Below are positions 7,398 through 19,266 of a DNA stretch of 44,491 bases, piece after piece. Positions within the stretch are counted from its first letter, which is position 1. Every line of letters begins with the position of its first letter. This DNA comes from Methyloprofundus sp. (GTDB taxonomy: Bacteria; Pseudomonadota; Gammaproteobacteria; Methylococcales; Methylomonadaceae). The stretch lies in contig JAQRMR010000053.1 in NCBI GenBank assembly GCA_028599115.1, positions 1 to 44,491 on the forward strand, read 5' to 3'. The position numbers and the translations under genes are program-made. The notes under the pieces were generated by a model, which was given only the letters and a program-made list of their open reading frames with translations, did no database searches and was not told where the DNA came from.

Positions 7398-8852
7398 TTA
7401 TTTTGTAATGACTGGCATAGCCCCATTTTCATTACGTTTTTTATTGTTAGTATCCCAGATGAGCAAGTCTACATAACTACGAATATTGGTCACATAGATG
7501 ACAGGTTCTTTGCCCCGAGCATAGCCATGCTTAGTTTGTGAATACCATTTTTTCTGAGATAGCAGGGGTAGCATTTCTTTAACATCAACCCATTTATCCG
7601 GATTTTTTCCAAATCGTTGGGCTAGGATACGAGCATCATTAACATGTCCAAAACCTACATTATAGGAAGCTAGGGCAAACCAGGTTCTGTCAGGTTCTTG
7701 AATTCTATTGGGGAATTTCTTGATACGCTGTTTTAAATAAAGCGCACCACCATAAATACTTTGTTTAGGGTCAGTTCTGTCAGTAACATGCAGGCCTTTT
7801 GCCGTACTTTGGGTAAGCATCATTAGGCCCCTGACACCCGTTGGAGAAACTGCTCGTTTATTCCAGTGAGATTCTTGATAGCTGATGGCAGCAAGTAGTC
7901 GCCAATCAATTTTATGTTTATTGGCGGCTTCTTTGAATAAATTCAGATAAAGTGGAAGGCGGCTGGAAACATGTTTTTTAAAGGTGCAGTTGCCTACATA
8001 GCGTATTTGTTTAACATGGCCATAATGGCGTTCAAGTAGTTGTGCAAGTGTTTTATTTTGTTGTATTTTTTTAAAGAATAATGCAGCCTCATTGTATAGG
8101 CTTAAGTCGTCAGACTTTGTAAAAGCCCAAGCAAATCGTCTTGGTGGGCTAATATCAAATGCAACATGTAGCTTAGGGTAAAAGCGGCGCAACAGTGTGA
8201 TTTGATTAGAGTCTGCAACGGTGTAATCAATGAGTCTTTCATTAATCAGGTAAAGCAATTCATCGGTTTCAAGTTCGGTATTAACTAGCCATTGAAGTTC
8301 AGGTGTCTCTTCTTTTAATAGTAATAAGGATTCATTATGGCTCGTTCCTTGAACGATTTCTAATATTCCTTGGCTAAGGTCCTCAGGTTTTTTAGGACGT
8401 TTTGTCCCTGATCGATAAACGAGTTGTTCTGTAATTTTTTGGTAGGCTGGGGTGAAAAGCAGGTGTTTATTACGCTCTTCGGTAATCGTTAGCCCAGCGG
8501 CAGAAAAATCAGCAAAACCACCTTGTTCAGTTTGTAACAAAATCTCAGAAAAAGTGGCAGGAACTTTGAAGTTAACTTTAACGCCTAAGTGCTGAGCAAA
8601 CAGGGTCACTAAATCATATTCTAAACCAGAAAAACCAGAGGCATTCTCATAAAAGGTTGTTTGGTCATAGCGACTGAGAACTGTAATAGAGCCTAGTTGT
8701 TTAACCCTGTCCAGTTGATTAATATAATAAGCGACCTTTTTATTACTATCTGAAAGGCTTCCAAAGAGAAGGAAGAATAATAAAAAAAGTCGCTTAAAAA
8801 GCAAAATTAACGAAGTGCTTTGTAATGGTTGATTAAGCCATTGGTCGAACAA
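7398..8852 (-). CDS. mltF: Membrane-bound lytic murein transglycosylase F (SBP-bac-3 + SLT domains)
   Basis: N-terminal solute-binding-like domain; SLT motif [27 protein letters not shown]; start uncertain (TTG near 8804 would avoid overlap with pgi). Confidence 0.9.
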
Positions 8853-10432
8853 TCATGAGCGGTTACTTTATGATCGCCTTCAAGTTGAGGGAAGATATTT
8901 TTTGCGAGTACTTTACCTAGTTCAACGCCCATTTGATCGTAGCTATTAACATTCCATACCTTGCCTTGCACAAAAATCTTATGTTCATAAAGAGCAATGA
9001 GTTTCCCTAGGCAATGAGGGGTTAATTTTTTGAATAAAAATGAATTAGTTGGGCGGTTACCAGAAAATACTTTGGCGGCAACGACATTATCGCAAGCGTC
9101 ATCACCTAATGCAGTTCTAACTTCATCCGTTGTTTTACCTTTCATTAATGCTTCTGTTTGAGCTAAAAAGTTAGAAATTAAAATATCGTGGTGTTCTTCT
9201 AAGTCGTAATGGCTTTGTGCTGGCGCTAAGAAATCACAAGGGATCAATTTTGTGCCCTGGTGAATGAGTTGATAAAAGGCGTGCTGTCCGTTAGTACCTG
9301 GTTGTCCCCAGATTATAGGGCCAGTGCTGTAGTCTGTTGCCTTACCTTCTAGATCAACACTTTTACCATTACTTTCCATGTCGCCTTGTTGAAAGTAATC
9401 AGCAAAAAACTGCATCGTATGGTCGTAAGGGAGCATTGCATGAGATTCGGCATTAAAGAAATTGTTATACCAAACACCTAATAACCCCATAATGACAGGG
9501 ATGTTTTCTTCAAAATCTGTATTTGCAAAATGCTGGTCAGCATCGTGAGCGCCTTCAAGAAGCTGCTCAAAATTATCCATACCAAGATATAAAGCAATAG
9601 ATAAGCCAATGGAAGACCAGAGTGAATAACGTCCGCCAACCCAATTCCAAAATTCAAACATATTATCGGGGTCTATACCGAAGTCTGTGACATTTTGTTT
9701 ATGAGTTGATAAGGCCACAAAGTGTTTTGCAACGGCAGAGGTATCATCGGTGTCTTTTAGTAACCAAGCACGTGCAGAATTTGCATTGGTCATGGTTTCA
9801 TGTGTGCTGAAGGTCTTAGAGGCAACTAGAAATAAAGTTGTTTCTGGGGATACTTTATTGAGTGTTTCAACTAAGTCAGCTTGGTCGATATTAGAAACAA
9901 AATGTACGCTCATGCCTTCAATAGCATAAGGTGTTAAGGCTTTTGTTACCATTTTGGGGCCTAAATCAGAGCCGCCAATGCCTATGTTGACAATATCAGT
10001 GATTTTCTTGCCTGTGTAACCTTGCCATTCGCCTGAGTGTACTTTTTCGCAAAAGCCACGCATTTTTTGTAAAGCTGCATTAATCTGCGGCATAACGTCT
10101 ATGCCGTCAACGAGTACAGGTGTATTGCTGCGATTACGCAATGCTGTGTGTAAAACAGCTCGGCCTTCTGTTTTATTTATTTTTTCACCCTTAAACATAT
10201 CTGCTATATGTGATTTTAAATTGACAGAGTTTGCTAAGTTGATGAGTAAAGGGAGTGTGTCGTCATTGATTCTATTTTTTGAGTAGTCAAAAAGTAGGTC
10301 ATCAAACTGAGTTGAGTGCTGAGTAAACCGGTTTGATTCAGCTGCAAATAAGTCTCTTAAGTGTAATTTATCGACGTGTTTCTGGTGTTCTTTTAAAGCT
10401 AACCATTCTGGTGAGCTAGTTAGATGAGACAT
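8807..10432 (-). CDS. pgi: Glucose-6-phosphate isomerase
   Basis: 541 aa; [39 protein letters not shown] motifs. Confidence 0.97.
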
Positions 10433-10676: not shown

Positions 10677-11270
10677 ATGAACACAAAAGGCATTATGAGA
10701 AGTGGTTTCATCGCACTGCTAAGTATGTTGTTTTCAGCTAGTGTATTTGCACATGGTGGGGCAGCGGGTACTGATACAGATCAGTGTAAATTTGAACTAG
10801 AACCCGAGCACTGGATTCACTATACGGCATATCAGCCTATAGCTTTTCCAGCTGAGGATTTTTGTGCGAATATCCCAAGTTTAGATACGATGACATTGCT
10901 TGTTTTTGATTATCAAGATGTTAGATATCGTAGTAGAGCAGTTGAATTTGAAATTACCAAAGAGCCAGAGGGAACTCGTGTCTTTTATCAAGCAGCAAAA
11001 AAGCATAAATCTGGGTCAGTTAAATTAACTTTACCTAAAGGTCTTTCTGAAGCAGGTAAATATTTAATTCATATCACGCTTTTACAAGGTAACGGCGAAA
11101 GATTAGATGCGCATATGGGCTTTAATGTTGGTGCTGGACAAGCTTCAAGCATGAAAGACTTATTTATGTATGCATTATTCTTATTTGCGGGCCTTTATAT
11201 CTTATATCTGTCAAATGCAGGGTTCAAAAGCAAGGTAGATGAGATTATTGCTGGTATTAAGAAAGCATAA
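10677..11270 (+). CDS. Exported, C-terminally membrane-anchored protein with predicted mature N-terminal His (putative copper-associated)
   Basis: Signal peptide ...FSASVFA^HGGAAG, ~150 aa predicted beta-rich domain, C-terminal TM MYALFLFAGLYILYL followed by basic tail. Confidence 0.7.
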   Translation: MNTKGIMRSGFIALLSMLFSASVFAHGGAAGTDTDQCKFELEPEHWIHYTAYQPIAFPAEDFCANIPSLDTMTLLVFDYQDVRYRSRAVEFEITKEPEGTRVFYQAAKKHKSGSVKLTLPKGLSEAGKYLIHITLLQGNGERLDAHMGFNVGAGQASSMKDLFMYALFLFAGLYILYLSNAGFKSKVDEIIAGIKKA

Positions 11271-11412
11271 AGTATAGGTTTTATTTTTATAAAACAAATA
11301 ATGAAAGTATAAATAAGTGTTGTTTTAAACTTGGTGTAAATTGTTGATAACAAATATTTGCGCTAAGTTTTTATACTTTTAAAGATCAGGTGTTTAATTT
11401 TAGGGTCATTTT

Positions 11413-13146
11413 ATGATGCAGAAAAATCCTTTAGGCGTGCTGCTGAGTACGGCAGTGGTATGCTTAACAATGTCGACGATAGTGACGGCAGCTTTACCTA
11501 AATCAATTGAGGTAGATCGCGGCAAAGTAGAGCCAGTTTGTAACGAAAATAATCCGGATTGGCGACTGGCGCAAACGATAGAGGGCGTTAAAATTCAGGA
11601 GTCATTACGCTGTAGCCCTGATAACCCTTACTCTATTGCAGCTGAAGTTAAAGGTACAAATAATTTGTCTATGGAAGCGGTAATGAATACGCATTACGCT
11701 ATGGACTCAATCATTAAAAAGAATGATATGGATGGCGATGGCGATCCAGATTTAATTATTATTAAATTAGAAGTGGCAGAATTGAATGGCCATTCTCCTG
11801 ATTTTGATGGAGTTGTGCCTACTTTTGATATTGCCCCAGGTATTCAGCCGGCAATGTGGGTTTTTGCACCTAAATCACGAGGTATGGCAACCAATAGTTT
11901 TGTTGGGGTTGATGCGAACCCATTGTTAAGAGCGCCATCTCCTGTTATTAGGGTAGAGCAAGGCGATACTATTTGGATTCAATTAGAAAATACGCATTAT
12001 TTTCCACATACTATTCATTTGCATGGTGTAGATCATCCATTTGTGGATAGTTCAGGCGAAGGTAATGATGGGGTACCACAAACCAGTGATAAATTTGTAT
12101 TACCTGGGCAAAGTAAAACTTATGAAATACGTCCGCGTATTCCTGGTACATTTGTCTATCATTGCCATGTACAAACACATGTTCACTTAGCAATGGGCTT
12201 AGTGGGAATGTTTGTTGTGGAAGAAAACCGCCCAAATAACTGGGTACAAACATTTAATGTTGGCGCGGGACAGGTTCGTCACCCTTCTAAAGCTATTTTA
12301 GAGGGGTTTGATAGTGAGTATGACTTACATTATCATGCGATGGATAAGGAAATGCACAGTATCGTGCAAAAGTATAATGACCCACGTTTAATTGCTAAAA
12401 AAATGAATCGTGAATACGATATGACCGATTCAACAGAAGATTACCATACCTTAAATGGTCGTTCATTCCCTTACACGCTGAGGGAGTCGTTAATTGTAAC
12501 GGAGCCTGATAAAAACATTAAAATTAGAATGTTTAATAGTACGGGCGAACAATTAGCAATGCATACGCATGGACATAAAGGAACAATCACTCACTATGAT
12601 GGTGTTGAGCATAATCCTGTCGCCCAAATTACACGTGATGTTTATGACTTAGCACCTGCACAACGTAATGATTTAAAAATCAGTACGGTTGATGATGGTT
12701 TTCATAGTTATGGTGAGGGTATTTGGATTTTTCATGACCATCGTGAAAAAGGAATTACCACTGATGGACAAAACCCGGGTGGTAATTTGAGCGCATTAGT
12801 CTATAAAAAGTATTTAGATGAAATTGGCTTACCAAAAGGTATTGGTGAAAGTCCAATGCAGTTGTTTTCGGAGAAATTTCAACAACGCAAGTTACCTGTT
12901 TGGCAAAATATAGATGAATGGAATAGCTTAGGTGAGGTTGATTCGCTTAATTATGTTGCGCCAGAAGCAAGCAAACCAGCACCGGCAGATGTAACGCCAG
13001 GTTCTTCTGCTATTGTTGAGGTAGAAGAAGATAGTTCGATGAGAAATTTATTTTTTGGATTATTATTAGGTCTTTTTGTTTACCTTGCTTTTGTTAAACG
13101 TGAACAATGGCTAGCTGTTATATCTTCACTTAAAGGGAGTAAATAA
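11413..13146 (+). CDS. Two-domain multicopper oxidase, T1 Cu ligands in domain 1 (type C-like), C-terminal TM anchor
   Basis: FPHTIHLHG + FVYHCHVQTHVHLAMGL (T1 + trinuclear ligands) in domain 1; AMHTHGHKG + IFHDHREKG (no Cys) in domain 2; C-terminal NLFFGLLLGLFVYLAFVKREQW. Confidence 0.88.
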   Translation: MMQKNPLGVLLSTAVVCLTMSTIVTAALPKSIEVDRGKVEPVCNENNPDWRLAQTIEGVKIQESLRCSPDNPYSIAAEVKGTNNLSMEAVMNTHYAMDSIIKKNDMDGDGDPDLIIIKLEVAELNGHSPDFDGVVPTFDIAPGIQPAMWVFAPKSRGMATNSFVGVDANPLLRAPSPVIRVEQGDTIWIQLENTHYFPHTIHLHGVDHPFVDSSGEGNDGVPQTSDKFVLPGQSKTYEIRPRIPGTFVYHCHVQTHVHLAMGLVGMFVVEENRPNNWVQTFNVGAGQVRHPSKAILEGFDSEYDLHYHAMDKEMHSIVQKYNDPRLIAKKMNREYDMTDSTEDYHTLNGRSFPYTLRESLIVTEPDKNIKIRMFNSTGEQLAMHTHGHKGTITHYDGVEHNPVAQITRDVYDLAPAQRNDLKISTVDDGFHSYGEGIWIFHDHREKGITTDGQNPGGNLSALVYKKYLDEIGLPKGIGESPMQLFSEKFQQRKLPVWQNIDEWNSLGEVDSLNYVAPEASKPAPADVTPGSSAIVEVEEDSSMRNLFFGLLLGLFVYLAFVKREQWLAVISSLKGSK

Positions 13147-13148
13147 TC

Positions 13149-14003
13149 ATGCTAAAAAAGTTATCTATTGCTATTGTCAGTTTAGCGCTATCGGCACCTG
13201 TTTTTGCAGAAAAAGAGTTTGAAAATCATACCAATATGATGGACCACGGTGATGGTCATTTAATGGATATGACCGGTGGAATGATTATGGGGCAGAATAC
13301 TGATATTTTGCCTGGTGGTTGTGACAGTATTGCTGCAACAAAAGAGATTACCGTTCATGCAGGGCATAAATACGCTAAAAAGTTTCCTGGACGAATGTAC
13401 GCTTTTGATGTGCAAGAGTATCAATTTGAGCCTTGCACAAAGCTAACGATTAATTTTGTTAATGATGATAGTGTGCGTCACCAGTGGATGATGCATGGCT
13501 TACCTAAATACCTCTATCCAAAAGGTATGTTCCATATGGAAGTAACGGGCCCTGGGAAAATTTCAGGTACCTTGATTTTTCCACCTGGTGATAAAACTTA
13601 CCTAGTTCATTGTGATATTGCACAGCACATGGAAAAAGGAATGAAAGGTCAGTTGAAAATTGGTAAAGGGAGTGGTGATTTGCCGAGTATTCCTGGTGTC
13701 ACGCCCTATGTAATACAAGATGATTACTGGGATACTGAAAAAGAGCCAAATGATATTAGTGATGTCATCATTGAAGAAGTGACTGAGCTTAAGGAAACTG
13801 TTTCGAGTAACGATTCTTTTTTCTCTGGTCTTACGATTATTGGTTTAGCAATCGGCTTATTAGTTGCTCCTTTGCTTGCGCGTAAATTTAAAGATATGAG
13901 TGCTGGTGAAATTATCAGTTACTTATTTGAATTAGCCCAATCTGCAATTAGTATGGCAATTAAGCTAATTAAGTGGCTTATGAGTTTAGTCATTAAAAAG
14001 TAG
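13149..14003 (+). CDS. Membrane-anchored cupredoxin-domain protein with Met/His-rich N-terminus
   Basis: Signal peptide; HTNMMDHGDGHLMDMTGGMIMG; VRHQWMMHGLP and YLVHCDIAQHMEKGMKG Cu-ligand pattern; C-terminal TM segments. Confidence 0.85.
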   Translation: MLKKLSIAIVSLALSAPVFAEKEFENHTNMMDHGDGHLMDMTGGMIMGQNTDILPGGCDSIAATKEITVHAGHKYAKKFPGRMYAFDVQEYQFEPCTKLTINFVNDDSVRHQWMMHGLPKYLYPKGMFHMEVTGPGKISGTLIFPPGDKTYLVHCDIAQHMEKGMKGQLKIGKGSGDLPSIPGVTPYVIQDDYWDTEKEPNDISDVIIEEVTELKETVSSNDSFFSGLTIIGLAIGLLVAPLLARKFKDMSAGEIISYLFELAQSAISMAIKLIKWLMSLVIKK

Positions 14004-14027
14004 CATTATTGGTACTTTGTTTTAATA

Positions 14028-14066
14028 GCCCTTGGTAATTATATTAATAATTGCTAGGGGTTTTTT
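14028..14066 (+). terminator. Rho-independent terminator after cupredoxin gene
   Basis: Imperfect stem cccttggtaatta / taataattgctagggg followed by tttttt. Confidence 0.6.
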
Positions 14067-14091
14067 ATGCATGAAATTAAGGAAGCTTTAA

Positions 14092-14505
14092 ATGCTGGAA
14101 TTGTGGGGGCTGTTTGTTAGTGCTTTTATTTCTTCAACGATTGCACCAGGAGGCTCTGAAGCTGTTTTAGCTTATATGGTTGCTGAGAAAGTTCAGCCTA
14201 TTGTGTGGCTTGTTTCTGTGGCAACGATTGGTAATACAATAGGTGCTTTAACAACTTGGTGGCTTGGTTCTATTGCCGCGAAAAAATACCCTGCGGAATC
14301 TGTTTTAGATAAGCACAAACAACGAGCATTAAGCTGGGTAAAGCGTTGGGGCAATTGGAGTCTATTATTGTCTTGGTTACCTGTGATTGGTGATGCCTTA
14401 TGTTTTGCTGCTGGCTGGTTAAAATTACCTCTACTATTTTCTGTTGCTTTGATTTTTGTAGGGAAATTAGTTCGGTATTTAATGGTTGCATATTGGTTTG
14501 TATAA
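14092..14505 (+). CDS. YqaA/DedA (VTT)-family membrane protein
   Basis: LFVSAFISSTIAPGGSEAVLAYMV... and ATIGNTIGALTTWWLG, YqaA-like. Confidence 0.75.
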   Translation: MLELWGLFVSAFISSTIAPGGSEAVLAYMVAEKVQPIVWLVSVATIGNTIGALTTWWLGSIAAKKYPAESVLDKHKQRALSWVKRWGNWSLLLSWLPVIGDALCFAAGWLKLPLLFSVALIFVGKLVRYLMVAYWFV

Positions 14506-14561
14506 ATGAAACTAAGAAAAATAGTTATCACGGTAGATTTAAGAGTAAAGGAATGAAATAG

Positions 14562-15323
14562 ATGTTTCGCAATTTTCCTACAGAAATTCATGATTATTCT
14601 CATCAAAAGAGAGATTATCAAATTGTTGTTTTTACATTTACTTGTACAGCAATTTGTTTAACACTAGATGGTTTCGCACCACAGTATTTGCAGTGGATTT
14701 TAGCTTTTTTCGGCTATATTTTTCTTGCAGGGTTGTTATATTGGGAGTCTAAGCTTGTTCGGATGCAAGTTGTGGTTGCCTTGTTATTTGCAACAGCAGG
14801 GGAGATTTTCGCTTCACCTTATATGGAAGGCTATATTTACCGTTTTGGCTCAGTTCCGCCGTATGTACCTGCTGGACATGGCATGGTGTACTTAACGGCA
14901 ATTATTTTGGCGCGCTCAGGCTTTTTTCTACGCCATGCTCGAACGATTGCTTTTGTTGTTGTTGCTGTGTGTGGTGTTTGGTCGGCATGGGGGCTAAGTC
15001 CTTATGCGGAAAGAGGCGATCAAATTGGCGCAGTTTTATTTATCGTGTATTTGCTGTATCTTTTTAAAGGTAAAGCGCCAATGGTTTATTTAGGTGCTTT
15101 CTTTATTACCACATGGTTAGAATTGGTCGGCACGAGTGCAGGAACTTGGGCGTGGGCCGTGGTTGATCCTGCATCAGGTTTAACCCAAGGAAACCCGCCT
15201 AGCGGGGTTGCAGCATGGTATTGTTTGGTTGATGCTGTGGCAATGGCAGGCGCTCAGCCTGCATTAAATTTATTTCAAAGAATTAAAGAGCGCATTTGGC
15301 GTATAGAACAGAGTGTTAATTAA
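14562..15323 (+). CDS. Polytopic integral membrane protein of unknown function
   Basis: 253 aa, multiple hydrophobic helices, motif SVPPYVPAGHGMVYLTA. Confidence 0.65.
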   Translation: MFRNFPTEIHDYSHQKRDYQIVVFTFTCTAICLTLDGFAPQYLQWILAFFGYIFLAGLLYWESKLVRMQVVVALLFATAGEIFASPYMEGYIYRFGSVPPYVPAGHGMVYLTAIILARSGFFLRHARTIAFVVVAVCGVWSAWGLSPYAERGDQIGAVLFIVYLLYLFKGKAPMVYLGAFFITTWLELVGTSAGTWAWAVVDPASGLTQGNPPSGVAAWYCLVDAVAMAGAQPALNLFQRIKERIWRIEQSVN

Positions 15324-15329
15324 AATATT

Positions 15330-16232
15330 ATGCATAGAATAGAAGCGAATAAAGATTACCGCACAGTTAGCGATGAAAATACCAGTATAGAAGCGCTACA
15401 AGAAGCGGCTGTTAAGCACTATGATGCCTGTTATTGGGATTACTTATTTGCTTGGAGTAGCCGAAATGATTTGGCGCTACACTATGGTTATTGGGATGAA
15501 AATACGACATCTCACAGCCAGTCCCTATTGAATAAAAACCAAAAATTATATGAGTTAGCCGGTATTAAAGCGGATGATTTTGTACTGGATGCAGGGTGTG
15601 GAATTGGTGGCAGCTCTATATGGATGGCTAAAAATCATGGTAATCAATTAAAAGCGATTACTATTAGCGCTAAGCAAACTTATTATGCTGCGAACCATGC
15701 GAAACGGCATGGTGTGGCTGATAAGGTTGATTTTGAGGTGTCTGATTTTTGTAAGACTCCTTATGCAGATGAAACTTTTGATGTGGTTTGGGGCTTAGAA
15801 AGTATTTGTCATGCATTAAATAAAGGTGACTTTATTCGTGAAGCTTTTCGTATTTTAAAGCCAGGTGGGCGGTTAGTGGTTTGTGATGGCTTTATTACTC
15901 AGCGGGAGATTGCTGATGAAGATTGGCAAGCAGTTGTTGACTGCTTAGATGGTTGGGCAGTACCGAATCTATGTTTGCGTAGTGAGTTTGACGGTTTATT
16001 GCATGAAAACCAATTTTCTGAAGTGAAGTATACTGATATTACTCAGGAAACGATGCCATCAGCTGACTATATGTATAAAGTATCCAAGCGTTTAGAGCCT
16101 GTACAAAAAATTAGTCGATTTTTGGGCCTTCGCAGTGCCACTCAAACAGCTAATTTTAAAGTAGGCTTAGCGCAGCACCATTTATTTCACAAAAAGTTAG
16201 TTGAATATGGTATTTTTACCGCACAGAAATAA
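15330..16232 (+). CDS. SAM-dependent C-methyltransferase resembling sterol/tocopherol methyltransferases
   Basis: LDAGCGIGGSSIWMAK motif I; VVWGLESICHALNKGDFIREAFRILKPGGRLVVCDG. Confidence 0.8.
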   Translation: MHRIEANKDYRTVSDENTSIEALQEAAVKHYDACYWDYLFAWSSRNDLALHYGYWDENTTSHSQSLLNKNQKLYELAGIKADDFVLDAGCGIGGSSIWMAKNHGNQLKAITISAKQTYYAANHAKRHGVADKVDFEVSDFCKTPYADETFDVVWGLESICHALNKGDFIREAFRILKPGGRLVVCDGFITQREIADEDWQAVVDCLDGWAVPNLCLRSEFDGLLHENQFSEVKYTDITQETMPSADYMYKVSKRLEPVQKISRFLGLRSATQTANFKVGLAQHHLFHKKLVEYGIFTAQK

Positions 16233-16244
16233 TTGAGAGAAAAA

Positions 16245-16838
16245 ATGAAAAATATATTATTAGCTCTACTATTCATCAGCCCGTCAGTTTTTGCCCAACT
16301 GGACTTTGGCAATCAACAAGGTGATGCTTGGAAATTAAGCCAGAAAGATTCAAGCTTAATGTTTGTAACGACAAAAAATGCCAGTAAAACTGAATTACAG
16401 AATTTTAAGCAAATTAGTGGCCAAATTAAGAACAATGTTGCCACGGTAACCGTTGATTTGAATAGTGTTGCGACAGGCATTGAGATTCGTGACCAGAGAA
16501 TAAAGGATTTGTTTTTTGAAACTAAACTTTTTTCACAAGCATCGGCAATAATTAAACTACCCGCTCGGAAATTTTCAGCGATGAAAGTAGGGGATGTTAA
16601 GATTGTTGATCTGGAAGCGGAGTTAAATATACATGGCGTTAAACAAAAAGAAACGGTCAGCACGCAAGTTATTTTATTGCAAAATAACAAACTTTTAGTT
16701 AGCTCATTGAAGCCATTAATTATTAATGTACAAAATTTTAAGTTGCTTCAAGGTGTTAATTTATTACGTGAAATAGCCCATTTAAAAAGTATTAACTCTG
16801 CCATTCCGGTTACTTTTAACTTAATATTTACACAATAA
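16245..16838 (+). CDS. YceI-family exported protein (polyisoprenoid-binding fold)
   Basis: Signal peptide; VDLNSVATGIEIRDQRIKDLFFETKLFSQASAIIKL and LNIHGVKQ typical of YceI. Confidence 0.85.
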   Translation: MKNILLALLFISPSVFAQLDFGNQQGDAWKLSQKDSSLMFVTTKNASKTELQNFKQISGQIKNNVATVTVDLNSVATGIEIRDQRIKDLFFETKLFSQASAIIKLPARKFSAMKVGDVKIVDLEAELNIHGVKQKETVSTQVILLQNNKLLVSSLKPLIINVQNFKLLQGVNLLREIAHLKSINSAIPVTFNLIFTQ

Positions 16839-16858
16839 TAATTATAAAAAATACTTTC

Positions 16859-17299
16859 ATGAAAAATAAAAAAATAATAACGTTAAAAACTTATTTAATC
16901 AGTAGTTTACTTATTTTTGGATTAACAGCTTGTTCAGATGATGAGCCAAAAAAAATCATCCCAAAAAATGTTGTCAGTACAGATAATCACTTTGATCATA
17001 ATCATGATGAAGCAACTAATCTGGAAAAACATAAATTTGAGCATGAATTTGCTGAGCAATGTATTGCGCGAGAAATAAGAAATTCGGTTAATAAGGAAAA
17101 TGATAGAAAGCGTTTTGCTAAACCTTGTTTATGTATTGCTGAGGAAATGATGGATGATTTAACGACGGTAGAAGCAGAAAAATTCTTAGAAGAAGATAAA
17201 AATACTCAGTCATTAACTATTCGTTTTGAAGCAGCTGCTTACAATTGCTTGCAAGAAAAAGCAAAACCTCAGGAGCCTGAGATTTTTAAACGTCGTTAG
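16859..17299 (+). CDS. Lipoprotein with His/acidic-rich segment
   Basis: Lipobox LTACSDDE; STDNHFDHNHDEATNLEKHKFEHEF. Confidence 0.65.
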   Translation: MKNKKIITLKTYLISSLLIFGLTACSDDEPKKIIPKNVVSTDNHFDHNHDEATNLEKHKFEHEFAEQCIAREIRNSVNKENDRKRFAKPCLCIAEEMMDDLTTVEAEKFLEEDKNTQSLTIRFEAAAYNCLQEKAKPQEPEIFKRR

Positions 17300-17310: not shown

Positions 17311-17348
17311 AATAGTCACTTTTTTCTGCCTGGAAAAAGGTGACTATT
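17311..17348 (+). terminator. Probable terminator/hairpin after the copper/MT cluster
   Basis: Inverted repeat aatagtca...tgactatt with T/A-rich arms. Confidence 0.5.
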
Positions 17349-17385
17349 TAATTTATATTTGTTTTAAAGGTTGCTGAATATAGAA

Positions 17386-18312
17386 ATGGGCAAATCAAAT
17401 AGCCATTTTTCCAACGAGTTAGCTGAGCTATTAGTGCCTTTTGAGCAATTATTAGAGCAACAATCAGTACAGAAACTAAAGCTAGTCATCCATGCGGGTA
17501 CACCCAAAACTGGCACCACGAGCTTACAAACTTATCTAGATAAAAAACAACGAAAGCTAAGGGGGCTGGGGATTCTTTATCCGCATAACCTTGAAAAACT
17601 AACAAACTCTAGCGCACCAAAACACCAATGGTTTGAGAAGAACTTAGCCACAGCAAACTTGGACAGTTTTTTAGAAAACTTTAAAAATATTCTTTCGCAA
17701 GTTAAAAAAGAGACGCATACGATTATCTTATCCTCGGAAGGCATTTATAATTATTGGTGGGATTTTCCAGAGGAATCCAAAGCGCTTTTATGTGAGTTGG
17801 ATCAGTTCTTTGATGTTGAAGTTTGGGTATGGTTTCGTGAGCCACTTGAGTTTATTGAAAGTTACTACAAGCAATGCATTCGCAACCCACAAGTTGCAAG
17901 TAACCCATGTTATGGGCAAAACTTATCCTTTGCCGAAATGTTAAATATCGAATGGTTTTCTCGGCACTTAAATTACCAAGGTTTTGTTAGTGAATGCCAA
18001 GCGTTATTTGGTGAAAATAAGGTTTCAGTCTTTAAGTACGAAGGTGATGTGGTACAAGAAGTCAGGCAGAAATTAGGGCTAGCAACGCCTCATGACAATC
18101 CAACCCCAAGGCAAAATAAAAGTTTAAATAGTGCTTCGGCAGAATTATTAAGAGCGATAAATCACTATGAGCTTAAAGCAAAAGACAAAGAGCTTTTAAT
18201 GCCTCATTTAAAAGCAATCAATGAGATTCTTGATAATTACGCAAATGAGTCACTGATTGATGAAGAGTCTAGAAAAAAGGTTCTGAAGATATTTAGCCCG
18301 ACCAAGTTTTGA
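17386..18312 (+). CDS. Sulfotransferase-like P-loop protein
   Basis: VIHAGTPKTGTTSLQTYL (5'-PSB-type motif); EVWVWFREPLEFIESYYKQ region. Confidence 0.65.
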   Translation: MGKSNSHFSNELAELLVPFEQLLEQQSVQKLKLVIHAGTPKTGTTSLQTYLDKKQRKLRGLGILYPHNLEKLTNSSAPKHQWFEKNLATANLDSFLENFKNILSQVKKETHTIILSSEGIYNYWWDFPEESKALLCELDQFFDVEVWVWFREPLEFIESYYKQCIRNPQVASNPCYGQNLSFAEMLNIEWFSRHLNYQGFVSECQALFGENKVSVFKYEGDVVQEVRQKLGLATPHDNPTPRQNKSLNSASAELLRAINHYELKAKDKELLMPHLKAINEILDNYANESLIDEESRKKVLKIFSPTKF

Positions 18313-18363: not shown

Positions 18364-19266
18364 TTAATGTTGATAGCGTAACTTTCTTTCTTTACGCGAC
18401 ATTAAGTAAAAAACCACTGCAGTACCAACAAGCCCCATCATGCCGCCAGGCCCCCAAATCATGATTCCACCTAGTTGCTGATCTAACATGATTTCAATGG
18501 CTAAACGGCCATCTAGTACGTCGTATGCTGCATAAATTTGGTCTCTCTTTAGGGTGATAATGGCACCAATAACGGTATTGGGAATAGTGACAGCCCATAA
18601 AATAATTAAGCGTACGCCAAATGAAATTCGAGATGTTTTCTGTCGTGGGTCACAGATTAGCCACCAAAAGAAAAAGCCAGTTAGAATCATCGTAAAGTGC
18701 ATGGTGTTATGCAGCGATTGATCCGCTAAGGCTTGGTTATGCAAATCAGGGATTTGCCAGATGACTAATGTCGCAATAAATAATATGGGAGCAAGAACAG
18801 GGTGGCCTAATAGGTGATAGAGCCATTGAATGACTTTATTACGTACAATGGGGACTAAAACTTTATGCCGAATGCTTTTAGGTAGACCTTGTAATAAAGG
18901 CGCGAGAGGCATACTTAAGATGAGTAATAAGGGACCTAGACCACGCATTAATAAATGTTCTATTTGATGAAAAAATAGAAAGTGCTCTGATAAGGGTTCA
19001 AGGGGGGATTGCAGGGCTATGACAAAGCAAAGCATACCCAATAGAAATGTGATTGTTTGGCCTATTCCCACGGGGCGACCAGCTTCGCGCCTAACGACAC
19101 GCCCTCGGAAATAAACAATCACCGTTAATAGCATGGGAATGGCTACATCAGGCGTATAAATCCATGCTGACCAGATAGACTGGTAGGGACTAATTGAGCC
19201 ATGAGCAAAACAGAGGCTAGAAAATAAGGCTAGAGTAAATGCTAAGTAAGCTTTTAAGTAGGGCAC
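18364..19266 (-). CDS. ctaG: CtaG-like (Caa3-type) cytochrome c oxidase assembly factor
   Basis: Polytopic; FFHQIEHLLMRGLGPLLLILSMPLAPLL, HNTMHFTMILTGFFFWWLICDP typical of the CtaG_Caa3 family. Confidence 0.85.
   Translation of the reverse strand: MPYLKAYLAFTLALFSSLCFAHGSISPYQSIWSAWIYTPDVAIPMLLTVIVYFRGRVVRREAGRPVGIGQTITFLLGMLCFVIALQSPLEPLSEHFLFFHQIEHLLMRGLGPLLLILSMPLAPLLQGLPKSIRHKVLVPIVRNKVIQWLYHLLGHPVLAPILFIATLVIWQIPDLHNQALADQSLHNTMHFTMILTGFFFWWLICDPRQKTSRISFGVRLIILWAVTIPNTVIGAIITLKRDQIYAAYDVLDGRLAIEIMLDQQLGGIMIWGPGGMMGLVGTAVVFYLMSRKERKLRYQH

Follow-up and report, generated by a model that had tools for sequence, protein, structure and literature searches.

The eight-gene locus described here, from a Methyloprofundus sp. 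genome, is probably the accessory half, now detached, of an operon for a copper membrane monooxygenase (CuMMO), and its products would form a periplasmic relay for the oxidation and loading of copper; we put the probability of this reading at roughly 60%. Since the genes share an operon with a methane or small-alkane copper monooxygenase in related bacteria, the encoded proteins probably assist that enzyme, by loading or tuning it. The window, by which we mean the whole 44,491-nucleotide stretch of DNA analysed, comes from an assembly of 2.29 Mb whose named neighbours indicate kinship with Bathymodiolus/Methyloprofundus symbionts.

An ORF check bore out the original prediction of eight co-directional genes between positions 10677 and 17299, all eight being found in place (Table 1). 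A Pfam search returned matches for genes 2, 3 (weak), 4, 6 and 7 and no family for genes 1, 5 and 8, while RNA family and tRNA scans of the window found none of either. The C-terminal membrane anchors predicted for genes 1–3 are likewise present, as a modelled helix in gene 1 and as visible hydrophobic segments in genes 2 and 3. A sulfotransferase-like ORF directly 3′ of the cluster (17371–18312) is unlike the rest and was not seen there in the relatives examined; just downstream lies CtaG (18364–19266, − strand; caa3 oxidase assembly, copper-related), which has stayed beside these genes only among close relatives.

Table 1. Features of the cluster and its upstream flank, in window positions
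Feature	Position	Strand	Remarks
MltF-like lytic transglycosylase (SBP_bac_3 + SLT)	7398..8852	−	Pfam; also flanks the f7 and f8 pmo operons
pgi, divergent neighbour	8807..10432	−	Occupies the place of pmoCAB in families f7 and f8
Gene 1, pmoD-like	10677..11270	+	Signal peptide; His26-Gly-Gly; Cys37/His45/His48/Cys63; C-terminal membrane helix
Gene 2, two-domain multicopper oxidase	11413..13146	+	Pfam Cu-oxidase_3/2 (7e-23); C-terminal anchor
Gene 3, type 1 cupredoxin	13149..14003	+	Met/His-rich N-terminus; C-terminal membrane helices; weak Pfam Cu-oxidase_2
Intrinsic terminator or attenuator, gene 3/gene 4 gap	14027..14066	+	16 pairs and T-run; folding z=-3.5
Gene 4, YqaA-like VTT-domain membrane protein (DedA superfamily)	14092..14505	+	Pfam VTT (1.3e-10)
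Gene 5, orphan polytopic membrane protein	14562..15323	+	Synteny throughout family f1, also in UBA1147
Gene 6, class I SAM methyltransferase	15330..16232	+	Pfam Methyltransf_11 (3e-20)
Gene 7, YceI-family protein	16233..16838	+	Pfam YceI (4e-13); lineage-specific addition
Gene 8, lipoprotein	16859..17299	+	Lineage-specific addition
Terminator-like hairpin 3′ of gene 8	17311..17348	+	Closes second transcript

The order of genes in related genomes supports this reading. PmoD is followed by the cupredoxin, with or without an intervening multicopper oxidase (MCO), in 57 of the 60 loci sampled from the order, and mostly then by yqaA and gene 5; the MCO is encoded in 114 and the cupredoxin in 113 of 121 genomes. 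In family f1, pgi lies divergently upstream of the PmoD loci, and in many genera of this family the MCO is absent from the PmoD locus and sited elsewhere. Families f8 and f7 combine the same genes with those of the monooxygenase: the f8 operon reads pmoC-pmoA-pmoB-pmoD-MCO-cupredoxin-yqaA (L192, L193), and the f7 operon continues this series with the methyltransferase gene (L194, L197, L198, L200, L211), the MCO and cupredoxin genes of L200 overlapping by 4 nt and its gaps being 6–14 nt. An MltF-like gene stands divergently upstream of both f8 loci and of three f7 loci (L198, L200, L211). The window has kept this gene together with the tail of the operon, with pgi taking the place of pmoCAB, and two f7 loci (L201, L203) present an intermediate state in which mltF is followed by pmoD-MCO-cupredoxin-yqaA-methyltransferase without pmoCAB. 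Other arrangements include that of UBA1147 (L199), where MCO-cupredoxin-yqaA-gene 5 precedes pmoCAB by about 1.3 kb, and that of genus g4, where pmoCAB lies about 4 kb downstream in convergent orientation. In the genome under study pmoCAB does not adjoin the cluster, being located on contig C76 as against C71 for the window. The set can nevertheless be counted among the accessory genes of CuMMO operons, as some genomes encode it together with pmoCAB and the two co-occur. From these arrangements we infer that the window locus is the detached tail of a pmo operon, detachment being our inferred direction of change; in the MCO tree, built to trace vertical descent of the operon, the f7 and window proteins are not placed as sisters, and its long branches and open forks do not settle the direction. 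As for family f7, our guess is that it corresponds to the Cycloclasticaceae, on grounds that include multiple phmo copies (compare PMC12510462).

Presence and absence of the genes point the same way. Among 18 genomes of family f7, MCO and cupredoxin are both encoded in the 13 that have PmoB and both missing from the five that do not, a distribution with a chance probability of 1/8568 (Fisher), a value inflated by relatedness and shared operons, the genomes coming from one genus and not being phylogenetically independent. In 4 of the 13 PmoB-positive genomes the triad (PmoD, MCO and cupredoxin) and pmoB are on separate contigs, so that linkage is not the whole reason for their co-occurrence. 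Across 399 genomes of the phylum, PmoB was found in three, and the cupredoxin was detected strongly in two of these three and elsewhere weakly in one fusion protein. A universal requirement for CuMMO can be rejected, since a Methylocystis-type genome, Nitrosospira-like genomes and some Nitrosomonas encode the enzyme and no cupredoxin.

Gene 1 was left unnamed in the original prediction, which also missed the operon tail in sister families and the co-occurrence in family f7. Searched as a single sequence against the PDB, it matched only 6CPD (E=0.0024), and a profile of 33 sequences retrieved the same PmoD structure with E=1.1e-13 and nothing else significant. The AlphaFold model (pLDDT 82; helices at residues 3–25 and 159–179, the second being the C-terminal membrane helix) was also closest to 6CPD in a Foldseek search of the PDB, with a TM-score of 0.80, CopC following further down the list. 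Cys37 and Cys63, which are conserved in 100% of homologues, align with PmoD Cys41 and Cys65, and His48 with the CuA ligand His51. On the strength of these sequence and fold matches, the two strict cysteines, the signal peptide and the C-terminal helix, gene 1 is assigned to the PmoD/AmoD family of copper proteins. The predicted N-terminal histidine of its mature form holds up as well: His26, the first residue after a cleavage point read from sequence between SVFA and HGGAAG, is kept in 99% of 75 homologues, and the HGG terminus is 99% conserved in the order. The motif of the CuA-forming PmoD subclass, Cx7MxHxnC, is absent from gene 1, which reads Cx7HWIH; because Trp46 stands at the place of the CuA ligand Met49 in the alignment, we do not file the protein in that subclass and expect no CuA centre. 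By the rule published for PmoD proteins without the CuA methionine (PMC6189053), it should bind copper and not form CuA. In the same study, both of the PmoDs of Methylotuvimicrobium buryatense 5GB1C were detected in membrane proteomics, and a pmoD knockout in Methylosinus had a growth defect dependent on copper. The syntenic pmoD is carried by M. buryatense (L112), where cupredoxin, yqaA and gene 5 accompany it and an MCO gene is sited separately. Methylothermaceae-type genomes show some variation, with two tandem pmoD-like genes 5′ of the MCO gene (L167, L169) and, in some members, loss of the His ligands (L068, L069).

The copper ligands encoded by genes 2 and 3 are complete and do not vary within the order. 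Gene 2 qualifies as a two-domain MCO, with the type 1 copper motif in domain 1 (HxxHxH, HCHxxxH) and eight trinuclear-site histidines; the ligand residues of its motifs HTIHLH, HCHxxxHxxxxM, HTH and HDH are unchanged in 94 homologues. Its best PDB matches are the two-domain enzymes 2zwn and 3g5w, and against the curated CueO/CopA cuprous oxidase models it scores 33–36 bits, below cut-offs of 479–525. In the cupredoxin, H111, H154-C155 and H160 are invariant and M165 is 98% conserved in the homologue alignment of the order. Sequence searches found no PDB relative of this protein; in its Nitrosomonas homologues, the Met/His-rich N-terminus has turned into a His-rich tail that is tens of residues long. 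A second, divergent MCO–cupredoxin pair without an adjoining pmoD is present in the same genome (L174 17–2091 / L207; G000 contig C12), comparable second pairs are found across much of the order, and in M. buryatense the second cupredoxin is duplicated (L204). The single relative outside CuMMO carriers is a natural MCO–cupredoxin–CusF fusion, encoded by a gammaproteobacterium without detected pmoB (L173 1240–3249, − strand / L213 10089–12059, − strand), its CusF domain matching Pfam CusF_Ec at 4e-13. Because CusF carries Cu(I) in the periplasm, the fusion suggests that Cu(I) is the substrate. The Met/His-rich N-terminus of the cupredoxin, its His-rich counterpart in Nitrosomonas and the invariance of all copper ligands likewise speak for copper over another substrate.

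The terminator-like hairpin that the original prediction had noticed 3′ of gene 3 was recovered, and comparable hairpins occupy the cupredoxin–yqaA gap in 79 of 96 distinct loci, as against 1.3% of random 90-nt windows. This conservation makes two transcripts probable, the first comprising pmoD, MCO and cupredoxin and the second running from yqaA to the hairpin behind gene 8.

The neighbourhood check showed genes 1–5 adjoining in relatives, whereas the YceI and lipoprotein genes, also included in the predicted system, proved restricted to particular lineages. In the f7 and f8 pmo operons, yqaA takes the equivalent position. No known fold could be assigned to gene 5, which has no PDB relative by sequence or structure. 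It also occurs in 76 of 81 Nitrosomonadaceae genomes, directly 3′ of hao-cycA-cycB (hydroxylamine oxidation) wherever the upstream sequence sufficed to tell (for example L230 8171–8932, − strand; L250, L243, L244). Gene 5 is tied to CuMMO-fed metabolism in methane and ammonia oxidisers; it is not CuMMO-specific, as distant relatives exist in genomes without detected PmoB. The methyltransferase of gene 6 shares 44% identity over 297 aa with the gene that ends the pmo operon in f7, as against 26–31% over part of its length with its nearest others in its own genome, and a homologue lies beside gene 5 in several lineages, in one orientation or the other. Its membership in the cluster thus stands, given its place at the end of the pmo operon in one family, but not the isoprenoid or tocopherol specificity once proposed for it: the GPP 2-C-methyltransferase model gave 79 bits against a cut-off of 400, the best NCBIfam model about 80 against 400–550, and the UbiE/MenG models fell far below cut-off, for which reason an isoprenoid or quinone methyltransferase was rejected. 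YceI genes occur 3′ of gene 5 or 6 in some f1 genera only, and gene 8, a moderately His-rich lipoprotein with lipobox LTAC as predicted, is found at this position almost only in the Methyloprofundus-type clade; given their patchiness across relatives, both are rejected as core members.

Taken together, PmoD, MCO and cupredoxin, all tethered to the membrane, probably constitute a periplasmic relay for copper. The metal would be bound and passed on by PmoD and by the cupredoxin with its Met/His-rich N-terminus, while the MCO would use O2 to convert Cu(I) into Cu(II); PmoB/PmoC would receive copper in the proper state, and the level of free Cu(I) would stay low. In the weakest step of the scheme, the products of genes 4–6 would probably condition the membrane around the enzyme through lipid or quinone. 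Of the interpretation offered at the outset, a conserved copper-centred membrane gene cluster holds up; the electron transfer invoked with it is not the simplest role, since a multicopper oxidase uses up electrons in reducing O2.

Electron delivery to the monooxygenase nonetheless deserves discussion, although we consider it unlikely. Cupredoxin and PmoD would then shuttle electrons from the quinol pool, with the MCO as an overflow to O2, a role that would suit the intact type 1 site of the cupredoxin, the tethering of all three proteins to the membrane and the position of gene 5, in ammonia oxidisers, beside hao-cycAB, whose pathway passes electrons to quinone. The PmoD of Methylocystis does form a CuA site of the electron-transfer type (PMC6189053), but the window protein is without the CuA methionine and Methylocystis-type methanotrophs manage without the cupredoxin. 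Moreover, a complete MCO would draw electrons off the chain, and a Met/His-rich tail is a feature of copper binding, not of electron carriers. The CusF fusion, the PmoD fold and the Met/His-rich cupredoxin lead us to favour copper oxidation and loading. The same fusion also counts against an accessory role, because its occurrence in a genome without detected CuMMO implies that MCO and cupredoxin can work without the enzyme. It would fit a general, CueO/CopA-like copper detoxification, the link to CuMMO being incidental in cells that are copper-rich, as would the RND efflux pair divergent from the MCO and cupredoxin genes in Nitrosomonas (L214, L215). Such a role appears quite improbable, as the genes are sited in the pmo operon, go missing together with pmoB inside one family and are near-absent from 396 other genomes of the phylum, all of which also have copper to handle. 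Finally, action of the MCO on NO, nitrite or hydroxylamine arising from CuMMO side reactions, suggested by its distant similarity to copper nitrite reductase and by norCBQD-like neighbours in two Nitrosomonas genomes (L214, L215), is very improbable, given that other Nitrosomonas loci (L075, L216) lack the nor neighbour and that the linkage is to methane- and alkane-type pmo operons, where nitrogen oxides are marginal.

Particulate methane monooxygenase (pMMO) is much less active when isolated than in cells and, to our knowledge, the pmo operons of type I methanotrophs have been thought devoid of accessory genes. PmoD, MCO, cupredoxin, YqaA, gene 5 and the methyltransferase make up a short list of conserved, genetically linked candidate partners for pMMO in these organisms, bearing on how its copper sites are filled and on the identity of its partners. 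A bolder and doubtful extension is that the ancestral CuMMO set of the order comprised eight genes, namely pmoCAB, the copper-loading triad and a membrane-tailoring pair (a YqaA-type transporter and a lipid/quinone methyltransferase), that these are the missing parts whose absence costs isolated pMMO its activity, and that they have since moved from pmoCAB in most methanotrophs; if true, this later separation would explain why the accessory genes were overlooked. Proximity of pmoD and MCO genes in some genomes has already been published (PMC6189053). For the whole accessory operon, its loss along with pmoB and its detachment in type I methanotrophs, a search largely outside subscription journals found no description.

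Several known systems invite comparison. Cupredoxins are also genetically linked to CuMMO in the Angelarchaeales, where blue copper proteins are encoded beside the archaeal CuMMO genes (PMC9038741); those are different proteins, and no set of PmoD, MCO and methyltransferase is described there. With PmoD/AmoD (Fisher et al. 2018, PMC6189053; PDB 6CPD) gene 1 shares the fold, the two invariant cysteines, the C-terminal membrane helix, a histidine (His48) at the place of CuA His51 and a family distribution restricted to CuMMO organisms. It departs from them in having Trp46 for Met49, a one-residue insertion and an extra His45, in its mature N-terminal HGG, where the Methylocystis protein has no histidine, and in not adjoining pmoCAB. 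Gene 2 agrees with the two-domain MCOs (2ZWN; 3G5W) in its copper motifs, domain order and type 1 copper in domain 1, and differs from them by an N-terminal extension of about 170 residues with a conserved DxDGDGDPD motif, a C-terminal membrane anchor and a constant cupredoxin partner. A parallel in layout exists with the extended pmo/amo operons of alpha-methanotrophs and beta ammonia oxidisers, which include pmoD, copC, copD and pcuAC. Here MCO, cupredoxin, YqaA and methyltransferase replace CopC, CopD and PCuAC, and the window is without the pmoCAB head; what the two have in common is that the monooxygenase genes are followed by accessory genes for copper.
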